A stretch of 24,640 bases of DNA from a virus. Of the stretch, positions 12,417 through 13,386 are shown in pieces. The stretch lies in the IMG/VR virus record IMGVR_UViG_3300043449_000262, positions 1 through 24,640 of that record; one strand, 5' to 3'. Every line of letters starts with the position of its first letter. Position 1 is the first letter of the stretch. The translations under genes were made by a program, and so were the position numbers. The notes under the pieces were generated by a model. That model was not told the DNA's origin and did not search any database. It saw nothing but the letters and a program-made list of their open reading frames with translations.

Positions 12417-12620
12417 ATGCTAGTAAAGTTTTCCACACTCGCTGACGGTGTTTTTATCGAAGTAACTGATGCTATGGAGTATCAACCTTCAGACCGTTGC
12501 TTTCGCTTTGATGCTAACGGCAATGCCGAATATGCAATTTTTGCTGATCTAATCAGCACTAACCCAGCACCACGCTGGTTTGGGCATTGCTTCAACGAAC
12601 GGGAGTTTACGTTTGCATGA
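12417..12620 (+). CDS. Small protein, function unknown
   Basis: A 67-residue protein with a strong AAGGAG 8 bases before the ATG. It begins MLVKFSTLADGVFIEVTDAM and continues YQPSDRCFRFDANGNAEYAI, ending APRWFGHCFNEREFTFA. Alternating hydrophobic and aromatic residues suggest a small beta barrel or sheet. No motif is recognised. Its TGA overlaps the ATG of the methyltransferase-like gene, so both are made together. Confidence 0.6.
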   Translation: MLVKFSTLADGVFIEVTDAMEYQPSDRCFRFDANGNAEYAIFADLISTNPAPRWFGHCFNEREFTFA

Positions 12621-13174
12621 AAGTTCTAGTAGCTTGTGAATATTCAGGCCGTGTGCGTGATGCTTTCATAGGGGGGGGGGCTGATGCCATGAGTTGCGAT
12701 TTGTTGCCTACAGAAGCTCCTGGGCCGCATTACCAAGGTGATGTGCGTGATGTATTAGATTACCCTTGGGATCTAATGATAGCACATCCACCATGCACTG
12801 ATCTTTCTGTTAGCGGTGCAAGGCATTTTGAAGCAAAACGGCTCGATGGTCGCCAGCAATCAAGCGCATCTTTTTTTATGATGTTGGCAAAATCTGACAT
12901 TCCACGCATTGCAATTGAAAATCCAGTCTGTGTTATGTCTAGACTATGGCGCAAACCTGACCAGATTATTCAGCCTTGGCAGTTTGGGCATGGAGAAACC
13001 AAAGCGACTTGCCTCTGGCTAAAGGGACTTTCAAATTTGACTCCGACGAATATTGTTGAAGGCCGTGAGCAACGTATGCACCGACTTCCGCCTTCACCAG
13101 ATCGCTGGAAGATTCGCAGCACGACATACAAAGGTATTGCAAAGGCAATGGCTGACCAGTGGGGGCAGATATAA
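12617..13174 (+). CDS. Cytosine DNA methyltransferase-like protein with poly-G tract
   Basis: A 185-residue protein of the short phage methyltransferase-like family. It opens with a Rossmann SAM-binding pattern (MKVLVACEYSGRVRDAF), then CDLLPTEAPGPHYQGDV with the acidic strand end. The C5-cytosine-methyltransferase-type motif HPPCTDLSVSGARHF has the Pro-Pro-Cys at 58-60, and IAIENPV (101-103) replaces the usual ENV. It is much shorter than full C5 enzymes and lacks an obvious target-recognition domain. Codons 19-21 plus one base come from ten consecutive G residues (12671-12680). The start at ATG 12617 overlaps the upstream stop. Methylation of phage DNA to evade host restriction is the likely role; activity is unproven. 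Confidence 0.75.
   Translation: MKVLVACEYSGRVRDAFIGGGADAMSCDLLPTEAPGPHYQGDVRDVLDYPWDLMIAHPPCTDLSVSGARHFEAKRLDGRQQSSASFFMMLAKSDIPRIAIENPVCVMSRLWRKPDQIIQPWQFGHGETKATCLWLKGLSNLTPTNIVEGREQRMHRLPPSPDRWKIRSTTYKGIAKAMADQWGQI
12671..12680. repeat. Ten-G homopolymer in the methyltransferase-like gene
   Basis: Ten consecutive G residues lie at codons 19-22 of the gene at 12617-13174. As written the frame is open. One G more would give GGC-TGA at once; one fewer would give a TGA after three further codons. Such tracts are typical sites of slipped-strand mispairing. Confidence 0.9.
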
Positions 13175-13386
13175 TGACACCAGCAAAGCTTAAACTAGCT
13201 AGAGTAGCTATGGGCTACAGCGTAACAGAGATGGCTGACGCTTTACGCCTATCACCAGACAACGGCGCAACAAGCATACGCAAGATGGAATCTGGCAAGG
13301 TGCGTATCAGTGGGCCTATTATGGTTGCAGTCGATGCAATGCTAAAGGGCTATGACCCATTCGGTGATGATTATGACGCAGAATGA
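13174..13386 (+). CDS. XRE-type helix-turn-helix protein
   Basis: A 70-residue DNA-binding protein: MTPAKLKLARVAMGYSVTEM is helix 1 plus the first HTH helix, ADALRLSPDNGATSIRKMES gives the turn and recognition helix, and GKVRISGPIMVAVDAMLKGY packs behind. The order (LKLAR...G.S..EMA..L...) is that of XRE/lambda-repressor-like domains. ATG 13174 overlaps the methyltransferase stop by one base; a GTG at 13159 would only add five residues. A regulatory role in early-to-late switching is possible, but its operator is not identified. Confidence 0.78.
   Translation: MTPAKLKLARVAMGYSVTEMADALRLSPDNGATSIRKMESGKVRISGPIMVAVDAMLKGYDPFGDDYDAE

Follow-up and report, generated by a model that had tools for sequence, protein, structure and literature searches.

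Slipped-strand mispairing at G tracts during replication is an established mechanism in bacteria, and simple-repeat phase variation is usually viewed as a bacterial strategy, defence against phages included. Phages have switches of other kinds, such as DNA inversion of tail-fibre genes (Mu gin, P1 cin), diversity-generating retroelements (BPP-1) and the Dam/OxyR-controlled gtr operons of P22-like phages. Like the switch proposed here, they are carried by the phage and make its progeny or lysogens heterogeneous, but they place surface genes under a recombinase, a reverse transcriptase or epigenetic control and do not involve a homopolymer in a DNA-modification gene. Bacterial genes with phase-variable poly-G, methyltransferases among them, are known from Campylobacter, Helicobacter and Neisseria (e.g., PMC6321876, PMC4889913 and PMC12003011), and our locus resembles them in its in-frame homopolymer, one-base length changes, frameshift between ON and OFF, and methyltransferase target. 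Unlike the bacterial systems, this gene occurs in many lineages of tailed phages and encodes a minimal C5-type protein of 185 aa. Its immediate neighbours in the genome studied here are HTH, DUF3310 and terminase genes, and no cognate restriction gene was recognised next to it, with the reservation that not every ORF was scanned for a restriction enzyme. Phage DNA methyltransferases of the same family, PHROG 757 (Burkholderia phage Bcep1 gp12, cyanophage 9515-10a gp12, Pseudomonas phage PA11), match over the full length at 58-70% identity; they differ in that none of the seven named phage relatives examined has a tract at this site. We found no report of a phage-encoded, homopolymer-switched methyltransferase in the open-licence literature, which is weak evidence of absence. 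Phase variation of methyltransferases through poly-G is familiar from bacteria; for a phage gene it has, as far as we found, not been described.

The window, that is, the whole stretch of 24,640 nt analysed, is a 24.6 kb virus record; it has genes for a terminase, a portal and coat of P22 type, O-like replication and Erf. The uncultured phage record MW202867 has the most similar terminase (77%), followed by Xanthomonas phage PBR31 (69%). The methyltransferase-like gene sits between the replication and packaging genes, and the features of the region are as follows.

12417..12620, + strand: 67-aa ORF upstream of the methyltransferase-like gene, no family match in Pfam and PHROG searches
12617..13174, + strand: C5-cytosine-methyltransferase-like gene, 185 aa, PHROG 757 (ORF; phrog_757, E=1e-69), ON with G10
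12671..12680, + strand: G10 tract, codons 19-22, proposed slippage switch (same-site G7-G12 in relatives; structure model)
12682..12684, + strand: TGA closing the +1 (G11) frame (from the sequence)
12690..12692, + strand: TGA closing the -1 (G9) frame (from the sequence; natural example in contig L307)
12788..12796, + strand: PPC catalytic-type motif (P58, P59, C60), with P58 and C60 invariant in the alignment
12917..12925, + strand: ENP motif (E101, N102, P103), the ENV-type motif of C5 methyltransferases, invariant in the alignment
13174..13386, + strand: small helix-turn-helix protein (family search), directly downstream of the methyltransferase-like gene

The start of the methyltransferase-like gene overlaps the stop of the 67-aa ORF in an ATGA at 12617-12620, which suggests translational coupling of the gene to this ORF.

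The original prediction had placed ten G at 12671-12680, in codons 19-22, and had called the run the longest homopolymer in the window; both statements proved correct. Counted from the ATG at 12617, the tract forms codons 19-21 and the first base of codon 22, and reads ...DAFI-GGG-ADAM... in the protein. The next longest homopolymers are three 7-nt runs of A or T and the second-longest G run has 6 nt, while about 0.02 runs of ten G would be expected in the window at 24.6% G. As had also been foreseen, ten G leave the frame open, an eleventh (+1 frame) leads into the TGA right after the tract, and the loss of one (-1 frame) leads into the TGA four codons past it. The latter case exists in nature: contig L307, from the window's lineage (~94% identity), carries G9 and is OFF, its product being MKVLVACEYSGRVRDAFIGGGLMP-stop with the stop at the predicted TGA.

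The match of the product to Pfam PF00145 (C5-methylase) lay below the cut-off (13.1 bits vs 22), and we therefore name it only methyltransferase-like; a PDB sequence search and NCBIfam gave no match. An AlphaFold model built with 36 relatives (mean pLDDT 79.7) was matched by Foldseek to DNMT3A/B, M.HaeIII, M.HhaI and the E. coli prophage Cp-933R enzyme, with a probability of 1.00 and TM-scores of ~0.5-0.6. P58, C60, E101, N102 and P103 were invariant in 40 aligned sequences, the second motif reading ENP. Because of these fold matches and the invariant P58, C60 and ENP, we call the 185-aa product C5-cytosine-methyltransferase-like, a name that rests on the predicted model and the motifs, with enzymatic activity only putative. 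As regards a separate target-recognition domain, M.HhaI, M.HaeIII and the Cp-933R enzyme measure 327-348 aa compared with 185 aa here, and loop 66-74 of the model is of low confidence. In the model, the tract codes for the turn that joins the first helix (10-19) to the second strand (23-27), and according to the alignment and the model this turn varies freely among relatives apart from one glycine.

We then compared the site across related genes. The 80 closest IMG/VR relatives gave 78 unique usable genes, 18 of which had G7-G11 at the same codons. Pattern scans anchored on VRDxF yielded 84 + 75 = 159 contigs, including a few chance hits, and a scan of cellular assemblies with the same anchor found five, namely two Pseudoxanthomonas isolates and three MAGs. 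When more cellular examples were sought in 395 Xanthomonadaceae genomes, only the two Pseudoxanthomonas loci were recovered. Altogether, 194 unique genes were collected: 128 with a tract of 7-12, 65 without a tract, and one contig-end artefact (L270, G16) that was left out of the counts. A comparison of tract lengths among related phages, as the original prediction had proposed, thus returned lengths from 7 to 12, both in and out of frame. The prediction had further held that the tract replaces a less repetitive sequence of the relatives. This is true of the tract-less relatives, which have mixed codons at the site (e.g., GCG AAA GGC CAT in Burkholderia phage Bcep1), but not of the many other relatives that share the tract. 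Throughout 1.16 Mb of tract loci, 118 G/C runs of at least 8 lay at the tract site and 11 elsewhere, several of the latter being contig-end artefacts. Tract presence was inherited on the tree (26 changes vs 50 with shuffled labels), with gain or loss at least 5 times on well-supported branches and 26 times on the best tree. In one sub-lineage (L279, L144, L187 and L285) the histidine codon after the tract has been lost and the tract has merged into G11/G12, with G12 in frame in one contig and G11 out of frame in three.

Among the 128 unique tract genes, 88 were in frame and 40 were off by one (17 at +1 and 23 at -1), whereas none of the 65 tract-less relatives was out of frame (Fisher ~1e-8, uncorrected for relatedness). 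Among the genes retrieved by protein similarity only, 5/18 with a tract were out of frame vs 0/60 without (p=4e-4). Frameshift breaks in the methyltransferase-like family map to the G tract or to a second, C tract. Near-identical genomes differ as well: L121 (G10, ON) and L124 (G11, OFF) align over 7211 nt with 2 mismatches and a single indel, which is the tract, and L125 (G7) and L288 (G9) align over 4134 nt with zero mismatches, the tract being their sole difference; these last two are both OFF and flank the ON length of 8. ON/OFF state showed no phylogenetic signal on the tree (28 changes vs 29.6 for shuffled labels). All 40 OFF copies were without a stop across at least the next 106 codons, and dN/dS was 0.02 for OFF-OFF pairs, 0.06 for ON-OFF pairs and 0.08 for ON-ON pairs, with 46 synonymous and 0 non-synonymous changes between the OFF copies of L037 and L198. 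Judged by their sequences, the out-of-frame copies are otherwise intact and under strong purifying selection, and are not dead genes.

The recurrence at the same codons, and the 40 of 128 copies that are out of frame yet intact, also between near-identical genomes, bear out the original prediction of a phase-variable switch. We conclude, from sequence comparison only, that the G10 tract is very probably a phase-variation (contingency) switch in a phage methyltransferase-like gene; the switching rate and the loss of activity in the OFF state have not been shown. Under this model, replication slippage (slipped-strand mispairing), which is itself inferred, would add or remove single G's near the gene start. 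G10, or G10 plus or minus 3, would give the full enzyme, and other lengths would bring a stop a few codons further on, with a peptide of ~20-25 residues as the product, which is presumed to be inactive. A phage lineage would then hold both ON and OFF genomes, and an OFF genome, whose gene is otherwise unbroken, could return to ON.

The methyltransferase-like family carries a second homopolymer, a run of C8-C10 at the WLKN(L/T)PP codons, in seven contigs, all of that family. Five of them are in frame; in L324 the run is one C too long and the conserved C-terminus lies in the shifted frame, and in L323 the site is interrupted and apparently out of frame. Screening the tract loci for further G runs revealed a PAPS-reductase-like gene (PHROG 424), in which 8/79 relatives have G9-G10 after the first helix, 4 in frame and 4 shifted. 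Its relatives without the tract were in frame in 71/71 cases, and 4/8 vs 0/71 would arise by chance with a probability of 4.7e-5, near-duplicates kept. Three contigs (L106, L137 and L174) have G runs in both genes, the methyltransferase-like run of L106 being only G7 and in frame. The sites are located as follows.

L049:3413 and L319-L325: C8-C10 site of the methyltransferase-like family
L106:5093, L137:2322 and L174:9452: tract of the PAPS-reductase-like gene, with relatives in L326-L405

On balance, we lean towards a broader proposal: poly-G/poly-C contingency loci, a few per phage, would be widespread among tailed phages in genes for DNA or nucleotide modification (the methyltransferase-like family with its two sites and the PAPS-reductase-like PP-loop gene). 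The ON/OFF combinations arising within one lineage would hedge against host defences, and phages, as bacteria do, would have a phasome.

Sequencing or assembly error, with the gene really always in frame, had been named beforehand as the main alternative. The data are mostly metagenome assemblies, homopolymers are error-prone, and an isolate assembly of P. koreensis has an obvious poly-G artefact elsewhere; moreover, purifying selection on OFF copies and the absent phylogenetic signal would also fit errors. However, the tract recurs at a single site in more than 100 genes, and near-identical contigs, that is, repeat assemblies of the same phages, mostly share one length (19/21 groups; the contigs are distinct, and some assemblies may share reads). 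Agreeing OFF groups of four (L116, L196, L197 and L200), three (L153, L159 and L314) and two contigs (L148 and L276) are among them, an agreement that random error at a rate of 31% of calls would not produce. In same-contig-pair comparisons, A/T runs of 7-8 differed in 2/65 cases vs 25/59 for the G tract, although the A/T runs are shorter. OFF copies were also seen in isolate genomes (L256, and L037, which bears an IMG genome number and not a metagenome number). With reproducible lengths in repeat assemblies, and with the isolate genomes (L256 and L262), we regard error as highly improbable. The agreement within 19/21 groups also means that switching, if it occurs as proposed, is not extremely fast.

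A tract that is mutable without being adaptive is harder to set aside: a glycine-tolerant turn would let G runs drift up, slippage would break the gene, and OFF copies would be short-lived mutants. The tract does lie in a variable turn, nothing suggests that OFF copies persist for long, and ON is the commonest state (88/128). We still consider this quite unlikely, given the many tract state changes on the tree, the strong concentration at one early site, and the like behaviour of the second C-tract site and of the early poly-G of the PAPS-reductase-like gene; synonymous interruptions (GGT, GGC or GGA) would also be expected if the tract were purely harmful. We give hardly any credence to programmed slippage, in which slipping of RNA polymerase or the ribosome on the tract would let every length yield some enzyme, with the tract controlling the amount. 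A run of G could be slippery, and programmed frameshifts are used by phages in other genes (cited in PMC8008677), but the length is not fixed at one out-of-frame value, unlike at programmed sites, most copies are ON, and there are shifts in both directions (+1 and -1).

With a phase-variable switch as the preferred reading, its possible benefit can be considered. C5 methylation can block ordinary restriction, yet it makes the DNA a target of McrBC and other methylation-dependent enzymes (PMC12707154). Fluctuating exposure to Type II and methylation-dependent restriction would, by inference, favour a switch, and as the likeliest of the possible benefits we tentatively suggest that the tract may hedge between hosts with restriction blocked by methylation and hosts with methylation-dependent (Type IV, McrBC-like) enzymes, a suggestion made without restriction data. 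The main alternative use, which competes only with this benefit and not with the switch itself, is regulation of genes of the phage or its lysogenic host via methylation. Bacterial phase-variable methyltransferases often control gene sets, and some tract genes lie in isolate chromosomes, probably as prophages (L256, and L262 from Pseudoxanthomonas dokdonensis DSM 21858); however, no regulatory target was identified, and we hold regulation to be rather unlikely. If phages do switch their own DNA-modification genes in this way, the progeny of a single infection could carry different modifications, and chance would in part decide which restricting hosts a phage can infect. Frameshifted phage genes that are now dismissed as damaged or misassembled would then have to be read anew.

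Several further observations were made. Another G10 run is present at L310:8922 in a tract-bearing phage contig, and poly-C/poly-G stretches resembling sequencing artefacts were seen at L089:10-62 and in the P. koreensis genome at G002:C5:70515-70621, which calls for caution with G runs in assemblies of this type. An apparent link between the tract and an early -1 stop (ATG-AGY serine codons; 99/115 vs 26/60) was rejected, as independent tree pairs gave it no support. The frameshifted methyltransferase gene of Levilactobacillus brevis plasmid pl12112-1 was likewise rejected as an example of the tract, the break lying near a different G6 run at another site. This gene (L290:4001-4600) is an unannotated methyltransferase relative whose frame is broken near that run, late in the gene, and pl12112-1 may be a phage-plasmid, given a terminase gene in the same region.
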